Source: Perlucidibaca sp.
Lineage (GTDB): Bacteria; Pseudomonadota; Gammaproteobacteria; Pseudomonadales; Moraxellaceae
Direction: 5' to 3'
DNA: 64,000 bases
NCBI GenBank assembly: GCA_023265995.1
Contig: JAHFSA010000001.1
Location: 62,001-126,000, forward strand
Shown one piece after another: positions 40,297-57,164 of this stretch (position 1 is the first letter of the stretch; every line of letters starts with the position of its first letter). The notes under the pieces were generated by a model, which was given only the letters and a program-made list of their open reading frames with translations, had not been told where the DNA came from and made no database searches. The translations under genes and the position numbers were made by a program.

Positions 40297-40314
40297 ATAT
40301 TACAACCATCATAT
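40297..40314. promoter_or_regulatory. Operator-like site A (ATATKAYAACCATCATAT family)
   Basis: ATATTACAACCATCATAT, 16/18 identical to 42790-42807. Confidence 0.5.
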
Positions 40315-40358: not shown

Positions 40359-40943
40359 TTACTCTGGAGCCAAGTGCTTAACCGCTGCCTTGAGCAACCC
40401 ATCAGAAAGACTGGCGTCATCGACAGCACGCGACAAAATCAAAGCTCCCACCATAGTGGACAGCGTCGCAAGCGCCTCCTCATGCGCAGCGGGCGTCCCC
40501 CAACCCTGCGACTGACGGGCAACCACATCAATCATCTCCTTGATGCGGCGCGTAGCAGCACGTCGGACTTCAGGTGCCTGGCGAGGCATTTCCGAACCCA
40601 AAGCTGCCACAGGACAGCCAACCTCGACGCCTATCCGATGTGCCTCGGAGAGATACGCACTCACTAGTGCATGCAACTCCTGTCCCGGAGGAGCGGCATT
40701 GGCAATCCCGGCCGCCAACGAAACTGCTTCGGCTCCAGCATGATCTGCCGCCTCGGCAAGCAATGCCTCGCGGGATGCAAAATGGGCGTAAAAGCCGCCA
40801 TGTGTCAGGCCCGCCGACTTCATGAGGTCCGCGATACCCGTCCCGTCGTATCCGCCTCGACGAATAGCTCGCGATGTCACCTCGACGATCCGATCGTGCG
40901 AGGCCTGCTTGCGATTAGTGCCGCTTGAGCCTGATGTCTTCAT
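40359..40943 (-). CDS. TetR/AcrR family regulator
   Basis: SHDRIVEVTSRAIRRGGYDGTGIADLMKSAGLTHGGFYAHFASREALLAEAADHA. Confidence 0.92.
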   Translation of the reverse strand: MKTSGSSGTNRKQASHDRIVEVTSRAIRRGGYDGTGIADLMKSAGLTHGGFYAHFASREALLAEAADHAGAEAVSLAAGIANAAPPGQELHALVSAYLSEAHRIGVEVGCPVAALGSEMPRQAPEVRRAATRRIKEMIDVVARQSQGWGTPAAHEEALATLSTMVGALILSRAVDDASLSDGLLKAAVKHLAPE

Positions 40944-40956
40944 GACGGTCATCATA
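40939..40956. promoter_or_regulatory. Operator-like site B upstream of TetR gene
   Basis: Minus strand ATATGATGACCGTCATGA, 14/18 identical to the 42790 site, at the TetR start codon; coordinates approximate. Confidence 0.5.
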
Positions 40957-41049: not shown

Positions 41050-41679
41050 TCAAGGCTTCGACCCACCCTGCACCTTCAGGTATGCCACAGTCTCGATGGC
41101 CTGGACCTTGATATTCACTTTGAGCTCATCACTGACAATGGGCGCGTACTTACCCATCCCGAAGTCTGAACGCTTGAAACTGGTATTCGCCTCGAAACCC
41201 ACGGCTTGGGCACCCTCATAGGGCGGAGATGGCGGGCGCATGTCTAGCTTGGTCGCCAAGGTGACAGGCCTCGTGATGCCGTTAACGGTCAGATCACCAA
41301 CCACAGTGAACGTACCTCGGCGAACATCACCATCGGTAATCGCCCTGCTCTTGAATGTCAGCTCCGGGAACTGCTGACTTTTGAAAAACTCACCGGAATT
41401 GACCAACAAGTTGTTGAGCGTGGAAAAGGACGTATCCAGTGACTTCACCTTCATGACGACCTCGGCCCGGGAAAGCTCTGGATGATCCTGATTACCCCAG
41501 ATAGCCCCCGAGACAGCCTTGAAGACGCCACCCGATGTGGTAATGCCCCCATCGCGCCACGTGAAGCGAACCTGGGTATTGGCCGGATCTATGGTGTAGA
41601 CCACGACCCGGTCAGCGTGAGCCGACATGGCTGCCAGCACCAGGGCAGCAGCCGTCAACAGCTTCGAAATCACATTCAT
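41050..41679 (-). CDS. YceI family protein
   Basis: Signal peptide; YTIDPANTQVRFTWRDGGITTSGGVFKAVSGAIWGNQDHPELSRAEVVMKVKSLDT...FPELTFKSRAITDGDVRRGTFTVVGDLTVNGITRPVTL. Confidence 0.93.
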   Translation of the reverse strand: MNVISKLLTAAALVLAAMSAHADRVVVYTIDPANTQVRFTWRDGGITTSGGVFKAVSGAIWGNQDHPELSRAEVVMKVKSLDTSFSTLNNLLVNSGEFFKSQQFPELTFKSRAITDGDVRRGTFTVVGDLTVNGITRPVTLATKLDMRPPSPPYEGAQAVGFEANTSFKRSDFGMGKYAPIVSDELKVNIKVQAIETVAYLKVQGGSKP

Positions 41680-41687
41680 GCAACCTC

Positions 41688-42689
41688 TCACCGCATCTTG
41701 ATGACGACCTTACCTTTCGCACGCCCTGACTCCGCGTAATCCAAAGCATCCTTGGTCGCTGCAAACGGCACGACCCTATCAATGGTCGGCTTGATGATGC
41801 CGGCATCGATGAGCGACGTAATTTGGCTGAGCTGATCCCCACTGGCGCGCATGAACAGGAACGAATAACTGGCATCACGTCGCTTCGCTGCACGCCTGAC
41901 ACCGTAGCTCAATATGCTGAATACAAACTTGAGGAACCACGGCGCGCCGGATGCATCCGCGAAATCGGGGTCAGGCGGCCCTGCGATCCCGATGACCTTG
42001 CCACCAGGCTTGAGCACTTGCAGAGACTTCTTGAGCGTCTCCCCACCTTGCGTATCCAGCACCACGTCAAAGTCTTTCAGGACAGCGGCAAAATCGTCCT
42101 TCTTGTAGTCGACGACGATATCTGCACCAAGACGCTTGAGCATATCGGTGTTCGACGCACTCGCAGTGGTCGCAACGGTAGCGCCCAAATGCTTGGCCAG
42201 CTGAATGGCAAAAGTACCAACGCCACCAGAGCCGGCATGAATAAGGACTTTTTGCCCTTTCTTCAGCTTGCCCTTCTCAACCAGTGCCTGCCAGGCGGTC
42301 AAACCCACCAGAGGAATAGAGGCCGCCTCCTCCATGGATAGGGCCTTGGGCTTGAGAGCCAGGTCATCCTCCTTGATGGCAATACGCTCGGCAAAGGTAC
42401 CGATACGATCCTGATGCGGTCGTGCATAGACCTCATCACCCGGCTTGAATCGTTTGACTCGCGGCCCGACACGCACAACAACCCCTGCGAAATCATTCCC
42501 CATGATCAGCGGCAGGCGATAAGGCAAAAGCAGCTTGAAGGCGCCGTCCCGGATTTTCAGGTCGAGCGGGTTGATGCTCGCCGCATGGATCTCGACCAGG
42601 ACATCGTCAGCCTGCAATGTTGGCTCTGGCATCTCTGCCAGGTGCACCACATCTGCTTTGCCATATTTTTCAATGATGAATGCTTTCAT
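41688..42689 (-). CDS. NADP-dependent zinc-independent quinone oxidoreductase
   Basis: MKAFIIEKYGKADVVHLAEMPEPTLQADDVLVEIHAASINPLDLKIRDG...VLIHAGSGGVGTFAIQLAKHLGATVATTAS. Confidence 0.93.
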   Translation of the reverse strand: MKAFIIEKYGKADVVHLAEMPEPTLQADDVLVEIHAASINPLDLKIRDGAFKLLLPYRLPLIMGNDFAGVVVRVGPRVKRFKPGDEVYARPHQDRIGTFAERIAIKEDDLALKPKALSMEEAASIPLVGLTAWQALVEKGKLKKGQKVLIHAGSGGVGTFAIQLAKHLGATVATTASASNTDMLKRLGADIVVDYKKDDFAAVLKDFDVVLDTQGGETLKKSLQVLKPGGKVIGIAGPPDPDFADASGAPWFLKFVFSILSYGVRRAAKRRDASYSFLFMRASGDQLSQITSLIDAGIIKPTIDRVVPFAATKDALDYAESGRAKGKVVIKMR

Positions 42690-42789
42690 TAAGTGATCTC
42701 TACTCGCTAACGACTTTGTGCTCATCTTGCCCAACCGACGCCGATGAAAACCTCCATCACCTGCGTTTGGGCGAAGCGCTTACCAAGAA

Positions 42790-42807
42790 ATATGATAACC
42801 ATCATAT
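42790..42807. promoter_or_regulatory. Operator-like site C upstream of quinone oxidoreductase
   Basis: ATATGAT-AACC-ATCATAT, perfect 7-bp arms. Confidence 0.6.
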
Positions 42808-42914: not shown

Positions 42915-42929
42915 AATAACCAAGTTATG
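42915..42929. promoter_or_regulatory. AATAACCAAGTTATT operator, site 1
   Basis: AATAACCAAGTTATG, 13 bp upstream of TetR ATG (42943); 14/15 match. Confidence 0.75.
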
Positions 42930-42942
42930 ACACCATGCCTGC

Positions 42943-43632
42943 ATGCTTACAGATAACACCTCCACTGATGTTCGTACTCGTCTCGTTGACGCGACGATCC
43001 GCGTTCTGGCAACGCACGGCCCCTCCGAGATCAAAGCGCGATCGGTCTCGAAAGAGGCCGGCCTCTCGACCATGGGTGTCTATACCTATTTCGGGGGCGT
43101 TCCAGAGCTTCTGCAGGCCGCTGCAGATGAGGGATTCAAGCGTCTGGCTACTGTCTTCGAGCGGTCCCTGACCACAAGCAATCCTGTAACCGACCTCTGC
43201 GCCATGGTGTTGGCTTGCCGCACGTTTGCTCGCCGCAATCCTCATCTGTATGACTTGATGTTTGGTCTGTCCATTGATGGCAGGTATAGCTCCTCGCATG
43301 GCAGCTCTGCGATGACGCCAGGGCAGTCCGTAGCATTCAGAGCGACCTATACAGTGCTGGTCGATGCCTGCACCCGTTTGGTAGATAGCGGGTTTGTTCC
43401 CAAGGTCGACCCGGTCTTGATCGCACTTCAGCTGTGGAGCGCCGCGCATGGCTTCATCATGCTTGAGCTCTCCGGTTACTTTGCTGATGTCATTGATCCG
43501 CCGGCGGAGATTCTGGTGCCGATGTGCAACCACGTAGTGATCGGCATCGGCGCAAATCCGGAAACGGTAACATCTGCCACTGCCGCCGCACTCTCCAGCC
43601 TGCAGGCCGAGCTCAATACCATACCAACCTAA
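42943..43632 (+). CDS. TetR/AcrR family regulator
   Basis: RTRLVDATIRVLATHGPSEIKARSVSKEAGLSTMGVYTYFGGVPELLQAAADEGF...IALQLWSAAHGFIMLELSGYF. Confidence 0.92.
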   Translation: MLTDNTSTDVRTRLVDATIRVLATHGPSEIKARSVSKEAGLSTMGVYTYFGGVPELLQAAADEGFKRLATVFERSLTTSNPVTDLCAMVLACRTFARRNPHLYDLMFGLSIDGRYSSSHGSSAMTPGQSVAFRATYTVLVDACTRLVDSGFVPKVDPVLIALQLWSAAHGFIMLELSGYFADVIDPPAEILVPMCNHVVIGIGANPETVTSATAAALSSLQAELNTIPT

Positions 43633-43645
43633 TATGCACAGCCTC

Positions 43646-43669
43646 GGCATGACTTCCCGGAGTCATGCC
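43646..43669. terminator. Hairpin between convergent TetR and GMC genes
   Basis: GGCATGACT-TCCCGG-AGTCATGCC, perfect 9-bp arms. Confidence 0.5.
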
Positions 43670-45261
43670 TCCGGGATCTGTGCCATCGCATACTCGGCCA
43701 GTGCCGTAATCGTCAGCGCCGGATTGACCCCAGGATTCGCCGGCATCGCCGCCGCATCACACACCAGCAAGTTCTGGTAGCCAAAGACACGCAGGTTTCG
43801 ATCAATCACACCGCTGGAAACATCACTCCCGATGACAGCCCCACCCAGCATGTGAGCAGTGGTCGGAATGTTTCCCAGCGCCTCGAGCACGTTGCTTTGG
43901 GCAATGCCACCCGTGTGCTGCGCCAACCATTGAGCGGCCTGGTTCCCGGCCTCGATGTATGTCGGATTTGGCTTGTCGAGGCTCTGCTCAGTCGCCATGC
44001 GGTAGCCTCGCCCAAACCAACGCTTGCGCGCACGCAATGCGATCGCGTTATCCAGCGTCTGCATAACCAGCAACAGCACCGTGCGGCGACTCCAGCCACC
44101 AGGCCACAGCGTCTCCAGCCATTGAACCGGATGCCGCAGGATGCGACCCAGCCACTTGAGCGGCCGGGTGAGGCGATTACCCTCTCCCACCAGCACCGTG
44201 TAAAGCAGACTCAGGAAATCCGCATTACGACCGTAGGTGAGAAACTCGATGTGGGTGTCCTGATTGACATGCACGCTGCTACTGGCGGTGACGTCATTCC
44301 AGGTTTGCCGATCCTCAGGCAGGCGCACGGTCAGGATGGATTCACTGTTCGTGCGAACCAACTCACCGAGGCGGTCACTGATTCGGGGTAATGAGCCGCC
44401 ATGCTTGCAGTTGGCCAGCAGTTCGTTGGTACCCAGTGTTCCACCCGCGAAAACCACACCGCGGGCAGTATGGGTCTGTCGCCCAGTGGCAAACCATTTG
44501 CCCGGTCGCTGCGTGGTCACGCGATAGCCATCACTGCCATCGGTGGCACCGATCGGCGTCACGTCAACGACCTCGCGCTCGGCCAGTATCTGCACGCCGC
44601 GCTTTTCTGCGAACCACAGATAGTTCTTCGTCAGTGTGTTCGCGGCACCCGTACGGCACCCCACCAGGCAGGCACCACAACGTGTGCAGCCGGTACGATC
44701 AGGCCCCTCTCCGCCGAAATACGGATCCTTTACGGTCTTGCCCGGCTCGCCAAAAAACACACCCGTGGGTGCCCGGGTAAACGTGTCCGCACTCCCGAAA
44801 TGCTCTGCCATCTCACGGATCAGTTGCTGGTTTGGCGAGTCGAAAGACACCGTCCTGACGCCAAGCATATGCTCGGCCATGTCGTAGTGCGGCTGCAGTT
44901 GCCCACCCCAATCACCCAGCATGTTCCATTGCGCGTCCTCAAAGAACTCCGGCTTGGCGCGAAGCAAAACGCCACCGTATACAACGCTGCCACCACCCAC
45001 GGCGATCTGGCAAAACGTGAACACATGACGAAACATCCGCATGCGCATGATGCCTTTCATACCCAGCAGAGGCGCCCAGAAGTATTTGCGGAACTGCCAG
45101 GTCGACTGAGGCAGGTCTTCGTCACGGTAGCGCCGCCCGCGCTCCAGCACGCCAACGCGATAGCCCTTCTCCGCAAGGCGCAGGGCGGAAACACTGCCTC
45201 CAAAGCCGGAGCCAATCACCAGCCAATCAAAGTCAAAAGCACTGCTTGTCATCATGCACAC
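43663..45261 (-). CDS. GMC family oxidoreductase, cholesterol oxidase (ChoD)-like
   Basis: FDWLVIGSGFGGSVSALRLAEKGYRVGVLERGRRYRDEDLP...YFGGEGPDRTGCTRCGACLVGCRTGAANTLTKNYLWFAEKRG...VCDAAAMPANPGVNPALTITALAEYAM. Confidence 0.9.
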   Translation of the reverse strand: MCMMTSSAFDFDWLVIGSGFGGSVSALRLAEKGYRVGVLERGRRYRDEDLPQSTWQFRKYFWAPLLGMKGIMRMRMFRHVFTFCQIAVGGGSVVYGGVLLRAKPEFFEDAQWNMLGDWGGQLQPHYDMAEHMLGVRTVSFDSPNQQLIREMAEHFGSADTFTRAPTGVFFGEPGKTVKDPYFGGEGPDRTGCTRCGACLVGCRTGAANTLTKNYLWFAEKRGVQILAEREVVDVTPIGATDGSDGYRVTTQRPGKWFATGRQTHTARGVVFAGGTLGTNELLANCKHGGSLPRISDRLGELVRTNSESILTVRLPEDRQTWNDVTASSSVHVNQDTHIEFLTYGRNADFLSLLYTVLVGEGNRLTRPLKWLGRILRHPVQWLETLWPGGWSRRTVLLLVMQTLDNAIALRARKRWFGRGYRMATEQSLDKPNPTYIEAGNQAAQWLAQHTGGIAQSNVLEALGNIPTTAHMLGGAVIGSDVSSGVIDRNLRVFGYQNLLVCDAAAMPANPGVNPALTITALAEYAMAQIPEA

Positions 45262-45274
45262 CCCGTATTAAGTG

Positions 45275-46747
45275 CTAGTTTCCAGCCACCGCATGCTCTG
45301 ACTTCCACAGGCCTTTCAACTTCATCTTGTCGATCTTGCCCACGGCATTCTTGGGCAGTGCCTCGATGATGCAGATCTTCGAAGGCCTCTTGAAACGTGT
45401 CAGTCGGTCGGCACAGTGTTCACGCAGTACTTCCGCAGTCACCGTGAACCCAGGGCGAGGCGCGACAAAGGCCACCACGGTTTCACCGAATGTCGCATCG
45501 GGAACGCCGATCACCCCTGCCTCGAGCACACCTGAAAACTCGGACAGTGCATCCTCGATTTCCTTGGGATAAATGTTCTCGCCACCACGAATGATCATTT
45601 CCTTCAGGCGCCCGACGATCGAGAGATAGCCATCCTCGTCGATACGCCCAGTATCTCCCGTTCGCAGCCAGCCATTGACGATGGTCTTCGCCGTTTCTTC
45701 GGGCTTGCCCAGATAGCCGCGCATGACATTCGCCCCTTGCACCAGAATTTCGCCAACTTCTCCTTGTGGCAAATGCTTGCCGTCGGGATCCGCAATCGCA
45801 ATGCGCTGGCCAACGAAGGGCAATCCAACGGTGCCGACTTTGCGCAGGCCATCGAAGGGGTTGATGGTGGATGCGCAGGTGCCTTCCGACAGGCCATAAC
45901 CTTCCACCAGCGGGAAGCCGTAACGTGTCTCGAAGCTCTTGAGCAGCTCCGCCGACGCAGGCGCCGCCCCGCAGATACCGTAGCGAAGGCTGGACGTGTC
46001 TGGCTTGATCTCGACCGGCAGTGCATTGAGCAGCGTGTAAATTGTCGGCACGGCAGAGAAATAGGTCGGGCGCAACTGCTCGACATCCTGGAAGAAGGTG
46101 TTGAGGCTGAAACGTTCCCTGATCGTGACGTGACCGCCAGCGGATAACGGCGTCAGGATGCTCACCACGATGCCATTGACATGAAACAGCGGGAGCACCA
46201 GCAAGCAATGGTCGGCCCGCGTGATCTTGAGTGATTGCCGTCCCATCTCCGACATGGCTTCGATGTTGGCATGGTCAAGCATCACACCCTTCGGCAGGCC
46301 GGTGGTGCCACTGGTGTAAATCAGCAGCGCCAGCGCATCGCTGTCCTCGACTGGCGCTCCCCTATGAGCAGGCCCGACGGCCAGCCAGGCAACCGGCAAG
46401 GACTTCACTTCTGACGAGGCGAGCTGGTCGCCATCATGGACGACAAGCTTCGAACCTGAGTCGATGATCTGATGGGTAGCCTCCTTGACGGTCAACCCGG
46501 GATTGATCGGCGTGACCGCTGCACCCAGCCGCCAGGCGGCAAACATCGCCACCACAAACTCCACCTGGTTGGGCAACATCAGAGCGACAACATCGCCAGC
46601 TCCGATACCCAGCCCGGAAAACACTCCCGCCGCCGCCAGCACCCTGGAATGAAATGCGCTGTTGGACAAGGTCGTGCTGGCATCTGCAATACACGGCGCA
46701 TCAGGCGCGGACGCTGCACGCCAATCCGATAGCTTTGAAAATCGCAT
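45275..46747 (-). CDS. AMP-dependent acyl-CoA synthetase/ligase
   Basis: LLIYTSGTTGLPKGVMLDHANI...GYGLSEGTCASTINP...WLRTGDTGRIDEDGYLSIVGRLKEMIIRGGENIYPKEIEDAL...LPKNAVGKIDK. Confidence 0.94.
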   Translation of the reverse strand: MRFSKLSDWRAASAPDAPCIADASTTLSNSAFHSRVLAAAGVFSGLGIGAGDVVALMLPNQVEFVVAMFAAWRLGAAVTPINPGLTVKEATHQIIDSGSKLVVHDGDQLASSEVKSLPVAWLAVGPAHRGAPVEDSDALALLIYTSGTTGLPKGVMLDHANIEAMSEMGRQSLKITRADHCLLVLPLFHVNGIVVSILTPLSAGGHVTIRERFSLNTFFQDVEQLRPTYFSAVPTIYTLLNALPVEIKPDTSSLRYGICGAAPASAELLKSFETRYGFPLVEGYGLSEGTCASTINPFDGLRKVGTVGLPFVGQRIAIADPDGKHLPQGEVGEILVQGANVMRGYLGKPEETAKTIVNGWLRTGDTGRIDEDGYLSIVGRLKEMIIRGGENIYPKEIEDALSEFSGVLEAGVIGVPDATFGETVVAFVAPRPGFTVTAEVLREHCADRLTRFKRPSKICIIEALPKNAVGKIDKMKLKGLWKSEHAVAGN

Positions 46748-46770
46748 GCTGACTCCCTCCTCGCTCCGGC

Positions 46771-47706
46771 TCAATTGGCAACCCCAAGCAGATGCTTCGT
46801 CAGGAACGCGGTCTGATCCGTTGCCAGCTCCTCAAAGGCCTCGCCCAGGTAGAACGCGAAGTGGCCTGCGGAATACCGCTTGATTTCGCCATGTGGCGCA
46901 CGACTCGCGAGGGCGATTGTCTGCTCCGGTGGCGTCACCGTGTCGGTGGTGCTGACACAGAACAGGATGGGCATTTTGACTTTGGCTGCAGAGCGCCCCG
47001 GCCGATACGTGGCAATCTCCGGAATCACTCGGGCGGCGACATGATTGACGAACTTATGTCCCTTCGGAATGAGCGCCAGGTAACCCTCAAGGGCATCATG
47101 TGCATTCATCAAGGCAGGCTGTCCCGGTGCAGCGGCAATCGGCACCATCACCGGCGGCCGCCCAAACAGCTTGGCCGCATAATCGCGAAAGATGACGGGC
47201 ATCATTTTTACGGACTCGCCAAAACCCAATGCGGCTGCTGACGCCAGCCCGTCAGTGAACGGGCACTGGCTGATGGCTGCCTTGAGTTCGGGATGTTTGC
47301 TGGCCACTTGAATCGCATGACCGCCACCAAACGAGCTCCCCCAGACTGCGATGCGACTACCGTCGACATCAGGGTAGCCTTTGACATAGTCCAGAGCTGC
47401 ATCCCAGTCTGCCAACTGACGCTTCACGGACATCAGCTGACGTGGGGTACCGCCGCTGTCACCAAAATAGCGGTACGTGAATGCCAGGGAAGCGATCCCT
47501 GCTGCGGCAAATCGCTCAGCATAGGCATCCAGACGCATTTCGCGAACCGCACCCAGGCCATGGCCAAGAACAACAACCGGTGGCCGCTTGACGCCTGCCG
47601 GCAGGTATAGCCATGCCGAGCAATAGGTCTCACCCGAATTGAAGCGGATGTCCCGACGCGTGAACTCGCGGGGAGCCTGGCTCCCGTTTTTCTGAGATTT
47701 GGTCAT
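46771..47706 (-). CDS. Alpha/beta hydrolase (dienelactone-hydrolase-like)
   Basis: PPVVVLGHGLGAVREMRLDAYAERFAAAGIASLAFTYRYFGDSGG...RIAVWGSSFGGGHAIQVA. Confidence 0.9.
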   Translation of the reverse strand: MTKSQKNGSQAPREFTRRDIRFNSGETYCSAWLYLPAGVKRPPVVVLGHGLGAVREMRLDAYAERFAAAGIASLAFTYRYFGDSGGTPRQLMSVKRQLADWDAALDYVKGYPDVDGSRIAVWGSSFGGGHAIQVASKHPELKAAISQCPFTDGLASAAALGFGESVKMMPVIFRDYAAKLFGRPPVMVPIAAAPGQPALMNAHDALEGYLALIPKGHKFVNHVAARVIPEIATYRPGRSAAKVKMPILFCVSTTDTVTPPEQTIALASRAPHGEIKRYSAGHFAFYLGEAFEELATDQTAFLTKHLLGVAN

Positions 47707-48677
47707 TGCTCACTCCCGTTGCTTATCGAGGAAAACCGACCGCCATTCAACACAGCGTCATAGGTGGCCGGGGTATACAGCGGCAAGTCACCACGGCGAT
47801 CGGTGTCCGCCATGTAGTCGAGCATCAGGTCCTGCGCCTCTTTGGTCGGCAGCACCTTGAGGAACTCGGTACGCTCCACATGCAAGCCCTCCTCAAGCGA
47901 CATAAATCCGCCGATGTTCACCGAGCGCTTGATCGCCGTTATCCCCCCTCTCGGCCTCGAGCCCAGGTATTGCCCAAGAGCAACAGCCCGCTCGATCAGC
48001 TCTGCCGGCGCCACCACTTCGTCGACATAGCCAATCTCAAGCGCCTTCTGGGGAGATGCAGGGCGCCCCTCAAGCATCATCATGAGGGCCCGGTGGGCAC
48101 CGATCAGTCGCGGCAGACGTTGGGTACCGCCACCGCCAGGATTGAATCCAAGGAGAATCTCGGGCTGGCCGATGAAGAAATCCCCATCCGCCATCAGACG
48201 CACGTCGCAAGCCAGAGCAAGCTCGCTCCCGATCCCCAATGCCGAACCGTTAAGGGCCGCGATGAAAATGACGCCGCTGGTGTTCATGCGGAAAAGTGTG
48301 TTGTGAAACCGATCAAGCTCCACCGCGCCCGATAGCGGCGTCATGGCTGCCACCGCCGATAACCCTGGTGTCCGGCGGACCGTGGAGGCCGTCCGGGCAA
48401 TCGCCGATGCCGCGCTACGCCCAACGATCGGAGTGGCCTTGCCTCCCTCTTGCAGCCAGCGAACATCGGCGTGGCCAATGAAACGACCAGGATGTGTCCC
48501 GGTCAGAATCACCGCCGAAACGGATGTATCAGACTCGACCCGGTCCACCAGCGTGGTCAGCGCATTGGCAATGTCTGGCCCCAACTCTCCACGAGGGCCT
48601 CCATCCAGTCTTGCGATCAGAACAGAGCCTCGGGTCTCTAAAGCAATCGGCCCTAGCTGTGTATGTGTCTTCGTCAT
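47703..48677 (-). CDS. Enoyl-CoA hydratase/isomerase
   Basis: IFIAALNGSALGIGSELALACDVRLMADGDFFIGQPEILLGFNPGGGGTQRLPRLIGAHRALMMMLEGR; overlaps hydrolase start by 4 bp. Confidence 0.92.
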   Translation of the reverse strand: MTKTHTQLGPIALETRGSVLIARLDGGPRGELGPDIANALTTLVDRVESDTSVSAVILTGTHPGRFIGHADVRWLQEGGKATPIVGRSAASAIARTASTVRRTPGLSAVAAMTPLSGAVELDRFHNTLFRMNTSGVIFIAALNGSALGIGSELALACDVRLMADGDFFIGQPEILLGFNPGGGGTQRLPRLIGAHRALMMMLEGRPASPQKALEIGYVDEVVAPAELIERAVALGQYLGSRPRGGITAIKRSVNIGGFMSLEEGLHVERTEFLKVLPTKEAQDLMLDYMADTDRRGDLPLYTPATYDAVLNGGRFSSISNGSEQ

Positions 48678-48737
48678 GTCTTCGATCCTCTTGTTGGGAG
48701 AGCCCTACGCCCTCCTTGGATAACTCACTGCCTTCGA

Positions 48738-48781
48738 TCATGAATAACTTGGTTATTTGACAATAACCAAGTTATTCATGA
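48738..48781. promoter_or_regulatory. AATAACCAAGTTATT operators, sites 2 and 3, in a perfect inverted repeat
   Basis: TCATGAATAACTTGGTTATT-TGAC-AATAACCAAGTTATTCATGA, 20-bp perfect arms; 15-mers at 48743-48757 and 48762-48776. Confidence 0.85.
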
Positions 48782-48809
48782 AATGCAACATGCCCGCCAT
48801 AACGCACGC

Positions 48810-50225
48810 TTATGCAACTTTTGGGGCGCCTGCACCGACGTAGAGCGCCTCCAGGCGATCAATAGCCTGGCCGATGCCGACCGCCATCTGCTGCATATGC
48901 GGCAGGCTGTCGCGGCAAGCCGTCAGGCCGAAATTGAGCGTTCCCGCATGGCTTAGGCAGGTGACATTCAGCGCCACACCGTGAAAAGGGATGCTCACCG
49001 GATAGATATGAGCCAGGCGCGCTCCATAGAGATAGCGATCCTCACTCGTACCAGGGACATTCGACACCATGACGTTGAAGCTGGGCCGGATGCGCCCGCC
49101 CAGCCCCGTCACCAAAGAGGCAATGAACGGCGAGAAGACGAGAGAGACCTGGGTCTTGCGCAATGCCGGCGGCAATTTCTGCAAGCGTGCCTTGGCATTC
49201 GCTGCCGACGCCTTGATGACTTCAAGCCGTTTGCGATCATCCGCAATGTGGGTGCCCAGGCTGGCGAAAATCATGGCCACGGCATTGCCGGCACTCTGAT
49301 CATCGGCATCACGAAGCGAAACAGGGATGGATGCCACCAGTCCTGTACCTGGCAGCGCATCACGATCCGTCAAATAATTGCGCAGCGCCATGCCGGTTGC
49401 TGCCAGCACGATGTCGTTGAGCGAGGCATCCGCTGCCTTGGCAATTGCCTTCAGGCGAGAGACCGGCTCGGCATGAGTCGCAAAGCGACGCTCCGCATGC
49501 ACACGCTCATTGAGAATGGATCGAGGCGCTGTGCGCAAGCTCACATCATGGTCATCTCCGCGCGCAAACCAGATGCGCCCCGCCTCACGAACGAGCGTTG
49601 CATAATCACCCAGCTTGATCGGCGCAGGCTTTACAGAGGACGCTTTGAGGCCGCCCGCACGCTCAGGCGTCTGAACAGCCCAAAACGGCAACTGATCCGG
49701 ATCATCGGCACGGGTTGTCAGGGCACGCAACAACATGCGAGTCGCCGACACGCCATCCGCCATGCAGTGGTGAAGCTTCAGATAGATCGCAAAGCGTCCC
49801 GCAGACAGTGGCGAGCCACGGACTGGATCAATGGCCGCACCCAGCCCCTCAATGATATGGCACTCCCAGAGCGGCTTCCTAAGATCCATGGCCTGGCTAT
49901 GCAGACGCGCGATCAATTGCCCCAGCTCACGCTCTCCCCCTGGACGCGGCAATGCCAGGTGTCGAACGTGATACTCCATGTCCAGGTCATGTACCTCATG
50001 AACCCTTGTCAGCAACTGCCGGCGACGTGGCGTTACCAATGCCTTGTTCCAGGGTGCCGTGAAGACCGTACTGGCACGGAAACGCTGCACGATGCCAGCC
50101 ACAAAGTCAGCATCAGCACCCTCCGGAAGATCGAACACCATAAGGCCAGCGACGTGCGTTGGCGTTGCATCCGACTCGACCTGCAGAAATGCGGCATCCA
50201 GCGGTGAAAGCGCGCTCAGCTTCAT
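48810..50225 (-). CDS. Wax ester synthase/diacylglycerol acyltransferase (WS/DGAT)
   Basis: LSPLDAAFLQVESDATPTHVAGLMVF...LKLHHCMADGVSATRMLLRAL...VMVSNVPGTSEDRYLYGARLAHIYPVSIPFHGVALNVTCLSHAGTLNFGLTACRDSLPHMQQM. Confidence 0.94.
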   Translation of the reverse strand: MKLSALSPLDAAFLQVESDATPTHVAGLMVFDLPEGADADFVAGIVQRFRASTVFTAPWNKALVTPRRRQLLTRVHEVHDLDMEYHVRHLALPRPGGERELGQLIARLHSQAMDLRKPLWECHIIEGLGAAIDPVRGSPLSAGRFAIYLKLHHCMADGVSATRMLLRALTTRADDPDQLPFWAVQTPERAGGLKASSVKPAPIKLGDYATLVREAGRIWFARGDDHDVSLRTAPRSILNERVHAERRFATHAEPVSRLKAIAKAADASLNDIVLAATGMALRNYLTDRDALPGTGLVASIPVSLRDADDQSAGNAVAMIFASLGTHIADDRKRLEVIKASAANAKARLQKLPPALRKTQVSLVFSPFIASLVTGLGGRIRPSFNVMVSNVPGTSEDRYLYGARLAHIYPVSIPFHGVALNVTCLSHAGTLNFGLTACRDSLPHMQQMAVGIGQAIDRLEALYVGAGAPKVA

Positions 50226-50295
50226 ATCGTTTCTCCTGACATTTGACGTAACTCGGGCAGCTGTCTCCCAGACACTTCACAGGCAGCAAAAATAT

Positions 50296-50330
50296 AATAA
50301 CCAAGTTATTGCTACAATAACCAAGTTATC
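50296..50330. promoter_or_regulatory. AATAACCAAGTTATT operators, sites 4 and 5
   Basis: AATAACCAAGTTATT (50296-50310) and AATAACCAAGTTATC (50316-50330) between divergent WS/DGAT and SDR genes. Confidence 0.85.
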
Positions 50331-50410
50331 GTACGGTGGCAAGCCTACCCATCCAGCCCTTCTGACCGGCACCTCATTGAGGTGACGACCCGAAGAACAA
50401 GAAGGAAAAA

Positions 50411-51259
50411 ATGATGAACCCGCAGACTGTCAGGAAGCCGTACGCACAGATCCCCACCACAGATGGCCTCGTCTCCCCAGGAAGGCGACCGGCGATCTTT
50501 GTGACAGGTGCTGCATCAGGCATCGGCCGTGCCTGTGCCGAGCTGTTTGCCCAGCGCGGCTGGTTCGTTGGTCTTTACGACATCAACGCGGATGGTGTTG
50601 CCGCCATTGCCGCCTCCCTCGGTCAGGGCAATGCAACCTACGGCGTGCTTGATGTAAGCGACGCAGATGCATGGCAACAAGCACTTGCCGACTTCTGGAC
50701 ACAAAGCGGACAACGACTCGACGTACTGATCAACAACGCCGGGATACTCTCTGCGGGATCGTTTGCAGCAGTGCCGCTGGCAAAGCACTACGCCATGCTT
50801 GATGTAAATATCCAAGGGGTCGTCGCGGGCTGCCACTGCGCCTTCAACTATCTGCAGCGCACACCGGGCGCCCATGTCATCAACATGGCCTCGGCCACTG
50901 CAATTTATGGACAGCCTGATCTTGCAACCTACTCGGCAACCAAATTCGCTGTCCGCGGCCTGACCGAAGCACTGGATCTGGAGTGGAGCAAGTTCGATAT
51001 CCGCGTCAGCGCCATCTGGCCCAGCTTTGTCAGAACCGCAATGGCTGATGGCTTCGAACAGATGCCCAGTGCCAAATCCCTTGGCATCCGGCTCACACCA
51101 GCTGACGTGGCATCGACCGTATGGGCATGCGTTACGGAAAAGAGATTAGTTCACAAGACTCACTGGACCGTCGGCCTGCAGGCCGGGCTGTTGTCACTCG
51201 CCACACGTCTCGCGCCATCGGCACTGAGTCGGTGGGTTGTACGACACATCGCACGATAG
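50411..51259 (+). CDS. SDR family oxidoreductase
   Basis: PAIFVTGAASGIGRACAELFAQRGWFVGLYDINADGVAAIAASLG...DVLINNAGILSAG...YSATKFAVRGLTEAL. Confidence 0.93.
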   Translation: MMNPQTVRKPYAQIPTTDGLVSPGRRPAIFVTGAASGIGRACAELFAQRGWFVGLYDINADGVAAIAASLGQGNATYGVLDVSDADAWQQALADFWTQSGQRLDVLINNAGILSAGSFAAVPLAKHYAMLDVNIQGVVAGCHCAFNYLQRTPGAHVINMASATAIYGQPDLATYSATKFAVRGLTEALDLEWSKFDIRVSAIWPSFVRTAMADGFEQMPSAKSLGIRLTPADVASTVWACVTEKRLVHKTHWTVGLQAGLLSLATRLAPSALSRWVVRHIAR

Positions 51260-55508: not shown

Positions 55509-57164
55509 ATGCAATCGACTTACGACTTTGACTACATCGTCATTGGCTCGGGCTTCGGCGGCAGCGTATCTGCTCACCGGCTGACAGAAAAAGGCTACGC
55601 CGTTGCCGTCATGGAAATGGGGCGGCGCTGGAAGGCGGAAGACTTTCCCAAAACCAACTGGGACACGCGCCGCTGGATGTGGCGGCCCGGACTGAAAATG
55701 TTCGGCTTCTACAACATGCGCATGTTTCGCCACGTGATGGTCGTCAGTGGCAACGCCGTTGGCGGGGGCTCCATAACCTACGCCAACGCCTTGCTCACGC
55801 CAGCAGACAAAGTCTGGGACGAAGGATCATGGGCCGGCCTGGCTGACTGGAAGCAGATCATGCCGCAGCACTACGCCACGGCGGAGAAAATGCTGGGTGT
55901 GACCGAAAGCAAGATCATGGGCGAGGCTGATCTGCGACTCCGGAAAATGGCAGAGCTGCATGGCGTGGCGGATACCTTCCATCCGCCACGCGTCGGAACC
56001 TTCTTTGCGGCCGATGGCGAGGAAAGTGGCAAAACCTATCCGGACCCTTACTTCGGCGGCGAAGGCCCGGATCGCGGCACCTGCGTGGGGTGTGGCGGCT
56101 GCATGATGGGCTGCCAGCACAATGCCAAGAACACCCTCGACAAGAACTATCTCTACCTCGCCGAAAAGCGGGGAGCGAAAGTCTTTGCCGAAACCCGAGT
56201 GGTGGATGTCCGCCCATTGAATGGCAAGCCGGATGGCAGTGACGGCTATGAAATCCACACAGAGTGCTCGACATCCGGACTCGACAAGAGGCGGCAGGTT
56301 TTCCGTAGCCGTGGCGTGATCTTCGCCGCCTCTTCGCTGGGCACCATGGAGTTGTTGTTCAAGCTCCGGGACAAGGGCTCATTACCGAGGATCAGTGAAG
56401 ACCTGGGCAAGCGCGTCCGCACCAACGCAGAGTCGCTCATCGGTATCCGCTTTCCTGCCGGGGACAAAAGCATGTCGCCGGGGCTGGCTGGTGGCGCCAG
56501 CTTCCACCTGGATGAGCGCACGCATATCGGCGTCGTGCGCTACCCGGAAGGATCGGATGCCATCGGACTGATGATGACCGTGCTGAGCGGTGGACGGGCC
56601 GGCTGGAATCGCATCCTGGTCTGGCTGCTGACGCTGCTGCTACATCCGTTGAATGCCTTGCGCGTACACAATCCCATCGGCTTTGCGCGTCAGACCATGT
56701 TGCTGCTGGTCATGCAAACGGCCGATGCCCATCTCGACATGCGCATGAAACGTCGCTGGTACTGGCCATTCGGAAAGCAGCTGGCTACCGAAGGCGGCCC
56801 CATTCCCACCTTCATCCCTGAGGCGAATGCCTTCGCAGAAAAGAGCGCCAAAGCACTCGGCGGCATCGCGACCACCATGTTGACCGAGATTCTGTTCAAC
56901 ATCCCGACCACGGCGCACTGCATGGGCGGTTGTGCGATGGCGGACTCTCCGGAGCGCGGGGTGATGGATGTGAAAAACCGCGTTTTCGGCTACCAGAACA
57001 TGCTCATTTGTGATGGCTCGATGCTCAGCGCAAACCTGGGCGTCAATCCCAGTCTGACCATCACCGCGCTGACCGAATATGCGATGTCGCACATTCCGAT
57101 CAAGTCAGCGGATTGGTCACGCCCTCAAGAGAGCTCACACATAACCAACCGCTCCATGGAGTAA
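55509..57164 (+). CDS. GMC family oxidoreductase, cholesterol oxidase (ChoD)-like
   Basis: FDYIVIGSGFGGSVSAHRLTEKGYAVAVMEMGRRWKAEDFPKTNWD...YFGGEGPDRGTCVGCGGCMMGCQHNAKNTLDKNYLYLAEKRGAKV...CDGSMLSANLGVNPSLTITALTEYAM. Confidence 0.92.
   Translation: MQSTYDFDYIVIGSGFGGSVSAHRLTEKGYAVAVMEMGRRWKAEDFPKTNWDTRRWMWRPGLKMFGFYNMRMFRHVMVVSGNAVGGGSITYANALLTPADKVWDEGSWAGLADWKQIMPQHYATAEKMLGVTESKIMGEADLRLRKMAELHGVADTFHPPRVGTFFAADGEESGKTYPDPYFGGEGPDRGTCVGCGGCMMGCQHNAKNTLDKNYLYLAEKRGAKVFAETRVVDVRPLNGKPDGSDGYEIHTECSTSGLDKRRQVFRSRGVIFAASSLGTMELLFKLRDKGSLPRISEDLGKRVRTNAESLIGIRFPAGDKSMSPGLAGGASFHLDERTHIGVVRYPEGSDAIGLMMTVLSGGRAGWNRILVWLLTLLLHPLNALRVHNPIGFARQTMLLLVMQTADAHLDMRMKRRWYWPFGKQLATEGGPIPTFIPEANAFAEKSAKALGGIATTMLTEILFNIPTTAHCMGGCAMADSPERGVMDVKNRVFGYQNMLICDGSMLSANLGVNPSLTITALTEYAMSHIPIKSADWSRPQESSHITNRSME

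Follow-up and report, generated by a model that had tools for sequence, protein, structure and literature searches.

A putative double TetR operator, formed by a perfect 44-bp inverted repeat, in the predicted promoter of a catabolic operon of Perlucidibaca sp.

The longest perfect-arm inverted repeat in the window (the whole 64-kb stretch of Perlucidibaca DNA analyzed here) lies beside the end of a WS/DGAT acyltransferase gene, which raises the question of whether it serves a DNA-binding regulator or the 3' end of that gene's transcript. The repeat spans 48738 to 48781 and has no strand of its own; its 20-nt arms (48738-48757 and 48762-48781) are 100% complementary and flank a 4-nt loop. Among perfect-arm repeats with loops of up to 10 nt, the runner-up reaches 13 bp per arm, and the maxima in order-1 Markov resamplings of the whole window were 9 to 12. 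Two palindromes, AATAACTTGGTTATT (48743-48757) and AATAACCAAGTTATT (48762-48776), are contained in the repeat, 19 bp apart from start to start, and both fit ATAAC-NNN-GTTAT. Some of the symmetry follows automatically from the two palindromes; the surplus consists of the opposed CAA/TTG centers and the outer TCATG/CATGA bases. The original prediction had described this nested structure, and its sequence and coordinates proved exact, as did the spacings that it gave (19 bp here, 20 bp for a second pair at 50296). The WS/DGAT gene does end nearby: its last base is at 48810, leaving 28 nt in between. The gene occupies the right-hand side and reads toward the repeat.

Our analysis indicates that the repeat is very probably a double operator for the TetR-family repressor encoded at 42943 to 43632 (plus strand), located within the promoter of a minus-strand operon for a hydratase, a hydrolase, a ligase, and a GMC oxidoreductase. 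The regulator matches the TetR_N (PF00440, 25.3 bits; cutoff, 24) and TetR_C_33 (PF13305, 63.6 bits) profiles, with the helix-turn-helix at its N terminus. Five sites lie within one mismatch of AATAACNNNGTTATT in the whole 2.64-Mb assembly, and we propose that this protein binds all of them. They fall within 7.4 kb (42915-50330), around tetR and its probable target operon, so that the palindromes occur nowhere but at the regulator gene and neighboring genes; at up to two mismatches, the window holds seven sites versus 0.11 expected. Reading on the minus strand, pair A (the repeat) comprises operator A1 (48762-48776, AATAACTTGGTTATT in this orientation) and operator A2 (48743-48757). Pair B, located between the WS/DGAT gene and an SDR oxidoreductase gene, comprises B1 (50316-50330, one mismatch to AATAACNNNGTTATT) and B2 (50296-50310), again on the minus strand. 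The fifth site, a single one on the plus strand (42915-42929), precedes the start codon of tetR by 27 nt; in homologous loci this is where the proximal member of a pair lies, and the distal partner is absent here.

All five sites share an asymmetric CAA/TTG center, whereas orthologous loci have variable centers: mostly RNY in Pseudomonas and Burkholderiales and mostly TTC, GAA, or CAA in actinomycetes. Recent duplication and shifted specificity are both possible sources of the uniform center.

Four genes make up the operon proposed to be under pair A, all on the minus strand: an enoyl-CoA hydratase/isomerase-family gene (47703-48677), followed by genes for an alpha/beta hydrolase (46771-47706), an AMP-binding acyl-CoA ligase (45275-46774), and a cholesterol oxidase-like GMC oxidoreductase that scores under the NCBIfam cutoff (43663-45261). 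The operon is probably a catabolic one of the lipid, sterol, or terpenoid type. Upstream of the hydratase gene come the WS/DGAT gene (48810-50225, minus strand) and, divergent from it across pair B, the SDR gene (50411-51259, plus strand). A second GMC oxidoreductase gene (55509-57164) scored 955.7 bits, above the NCBIfam cholesterol oxidase cutoff of 850; no site for the 42943 TetR was found near it.

Searching about 85,000 species genomes for relatives of the 42943 TetR yielded 78 loci. Orthologues with 60 to 69% identity occur in Pseudomonas and Burkholderiales (Variovorax, Paraburkholderia, Cupriavidus, Rugamonas, Duganella, and Collimonas, among others), and most of the remaining loci carry relatives with 43 to 55% identity, largely in Actinomycetota. 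The recognition-helix region, LSTMxVYxxFGG, is nearly invariant among these relatives, which fits retention of the motif across phyla. Homologues of the hydratase, hydrolase, and AMP-ligase genes occur together in 68 of the 78 loci, and ATAACNNNGTTAT sites are paired beside tetR and beside the hydratase gene. With up to one mismatch allowed, we found 58 site pairs 14 to 60 bp apart, in 46 of the 78 loci; the spacing is 20 to 24 bp in 52 and 21 to 22 bp in 47 of these pairs, although the loci share ancestry, so that such counts are not phylogenetically independent. Four control patterns, the reversed motif among them, gave zero pairs across the 78 loci. Simple counts of ATAACCAAGTTAT at one mismatch across relatives stayed at background level and were uninformative. 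The 19-bp spacing of pair A falls just outside the relatives' 20- to 24-bp range; this, like the CAA/TTG center in place of the RNY centers common in the Pseudomonas and Burkholderiales orthologues, counts against the double-operator reading. In Pseudomonas marginalis (L055:9951-11821), two tandem tetR copies precede the hydratase operon, and each copy is preceded by a ATAACNNNGTTAT site or sites of its own.

The conserved pairs keep a consistent register with a predicted promoter. Each of the 38 unique pairs found upstream of a hydratase homologue has a TTG that starts 11 to 14 nt before operator 1; the distance is 13 nt in 26 of them. A −10 hexamer begins with the three bases that end operator 1 and takes in the three that follow (TATNNT in 37 pairs, TACAGT in 1). 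A TTG at 13 nt gives a 17-nt spacer, ideal for σ70-type promoters, and operator 2 covers the expected start site. Pair A matches this layout on the minus strand only: the predicted −35 element (TTGCAT, 48783-48788) lies 13 nt upstream of A1 with a 17-nt spacer, the predicted −10 element (TATTGT, 48760-48765) takes its TAT from the end of A1, and the start site extrapolated from the −10 position falls near 48753, under A2 and ahead of the hydratase start codon at 48677. A simple σ70 scan called no promoter at pair A, because its −35 element is weak. We also considered a plus-strand promoter beginning with TTGACA in the loop and rejected it, as inspection by eye revealed no acceptable −10 element at 16 to 18 nt. 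At pair B, the layout points toward the WS/DGAT gene (−35 TTGCCA, 50337-50342; −10 TATTGT, 50314-50319), for which we predict a promoter there; a promoter-like CAGACA-18-TATAAT at 50269 to 50298, ahead of the SDR gene, overlaps the same pair. Judged by this shared layout, the 44-bp repeat is part of the predicted hydratase-operon promoter and does not belong to the WS/DGAT gene end; the putative operators are thus conserved with orthologous regulators and overlap a predicted promoter.

Putative operators paired in a promoter are a switch of a familiar type, and the layout recurs in related clusters of two phyla. One TetR dimer would bind each ATAACNNNGTTAT palindrome; with A1 filling the space between the −35 and −10 elements and A2 covering the expected start, a pair of dimers roughly two helical turns from each other would sterically block RNA polymerase and so repress, rather than activate, transcription. 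The ligand that frees the dimers would probably be a lipid-like pathway intermediate, for example, an acyl-CoA or a lipid acid.

The original prediction of two opposed TetR operators on nearly one helix face is well supported by the closely spaced, promoter-locked pairs beside TetR orthologues, as is occupancy by two dimers, and the cooperative binding that was also predicted is plausible from the conserved spacing. A variant of the double-operator reading, in which the dimers bind independently, without contact, and the spacing is set by the need to cover the −10 region and the start site, seems to us only slightly less probable than an even chance. Promoter placement alone could fix the positions of both sites, and the 19- to 24-bp range of spacings is loose for direct contact, but the concentration of pairs at 21 to 22 bp, about two helical turns, is what would be expected if same-face placement matters. 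That another regulator binds the sites, either the 35%-identical paralogue of the 42943 TetR encoded elsewhere in the genome (contig C1) or the product of the second TetR gene (40362-40955), 2 kb away, is extremely improbable: the sites accompany orthologues of the 42943 TetR through two phyla, including positions just before the regulator's own start codon, and the second TetR has a distinct candidate palindrome of its own.

The repeat had also been proposed as a cruciform or terminator after the WS/DGAT gene, and one rival reading is a hairpin that terminates this mRNA or stabilizes its 3' end. The stop codon lies 28 nt upstream on the minus strand, and the 44-nt minus-strand RNA directly after it would form a 20-bp stem of −26.7 kcal/mol (stem folding energies, −25 to −27 kcal/mol). 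We nevertheless consider this role highly unlikely. No U tract follows the stem on either strand, a terminator scan made no call, and the combination of a GC-rich stem and a U run that marks intrinsic terminators was not found; moreover, a terminator here would sit inside the hydratase promoter, and relatives that have no WS/DGAT gene carry the same paired sites. Comparison of the 47 unique homologous pairs points in the same direction: only 6 have complementary centers, and the outer flanks are complementary at a mean of 1.84 of 6 positions versus 1.5 expected, and therefore the stem is not the conserved feature. With stem pairing beyond the palindromes not conserved and the U run missing, a terminator or attenuator role was dropped.

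Returning to the double operator, the lack of conserved pairing outside the palindromes makes the nested perfect symmetry, as far as these comparisons reach, peculiar to the copy at 48738 to 48781; the pairs of its relatives are mostly imperfect as inverted repeats. That the centers and outer flanks match here as well is most likely incidental, and template-switch correction of a quasi-palindrome may be the cause, although this is a guess.

The nearest described functional parallel is AtuR/RdmA of Pseudomonas, a TetR-family repressor of acyclic terpene and DSF catabolism that binds two palindromic sites beside the −10 region of its target promoter and is released by a lipid-like ligand; its sites are 13 bp long (AGCAAGCGCTTGG / CCAAGCGCTTGCT) with a 40- to 42-bp spacer (PMC9973270). 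Both systems place a TetR-type repressor by a lipid or terpene catabolic cluster and two palindromes near a −10 element. However, the motif here is ATAACNNNGTTAT, with 19 to 24 bp from start to start, and two copies of AGCAAGCGCTTGG 40 to 42 bp apart were not found, so we rejected membership in the AtuR/RdmA group. TetR of Tn10 represses its target and its own gene through two palindromic tet operators that overlap promoters and bind one dimer each; its effector is tetracycline, and it controls efflux. The proposed arrangement resembles this one in having two palindromic operators over promoters with one dimer on each, but the Tn10 operators have another sequence and a wider spacing, and the proposed system also differs in effector and in governing catabolism rather than efflux. 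KstR controls sterol and lipid catabolism in actinomycetes and, together with Rv1816 and SCO4313-type TetR proteins, provides the nearest solved structures, all of them distant (E values, 4e-11 to 1e-4); at 28.2 bits versus the NCBIfam KstR equivalog cutoff of 280, the 42943 TetR falls outside that family. Several spellings of the motif of the five sites retrieved no relevant paper from the open-access literature; within the scope of these open-access papers, the regulon may be new.

How the WS/DGAT gene came to lie between two operator pairs can be approached through the homologous loci. In Pseudomonas, a single pair separates the hydratase and SDR genes, whereas in the Perlucidibaca window the WS/DGAT gene intervenes and there is one pair on each side. 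None of the Pseudomonas and Burkholderiales loci has a WS/DGAT gene at this position, and only 1 of the 78 loci, that of an actinomycete (L119), gave a WS/DGAT hit at all. We propose, with confidence evenly divided for and against, that a TetR subfamily found in both Pseudomonadota and Actinomycetota has a fixed two-dimer operator in the core promoter, where the end of operator 1 supplies the −10 element, and that here the WS/DGAT gene joined the regulon by gaining a promoter-operator copy, which would couple wax or fat ester synthesis to the catabolic signal. The insertion is thus a candidate case of regulon entry through copy gain. The analysis also defines a motif, a promoter layout, and a regulon for a TetR subfamily that lacks a description in the open-access literature searched; the paired sites offer clean DNA targets for ligand finding, and the natural series of spacings from 19 to 24 bp is suited to testing whether paired TetR dimers cooperate.

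Third-position GC content drops from about 0.8 to 0.9 before 36 kb to about 0.6 to 0.75 in most genes between 38 and 62 kb, and no close orthologue of the 42943 TetR turned up among 77 related genomes and 368 others sampled from the class. Therefore, the cluster was probably acquired by horizontal transfer, with 38000 to 62000 constituting a lipid/sterol-type catabolic island. Plasmid records contain only 40 to 49% identical relatives of the TetR, in Rhodococcus.

The second TetR gene of this region encodes an LmrA/YxaF-like protein. Another palindrome, ATATGATAACCATCATAT, lies at 42790 to 42807, upstream of a run of zinc-dehydrogenase, YceI, and TetR genes (41050-42734 and 40359-40955); its perfect copy is the only one genome-wide, and a copy with two mismatches is found at 40297 to 40314, just beyond the end of the second TetR gene. 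ATATGATAACCATCATAT is probably the operator of this second TetR and is offered here as a candidate.
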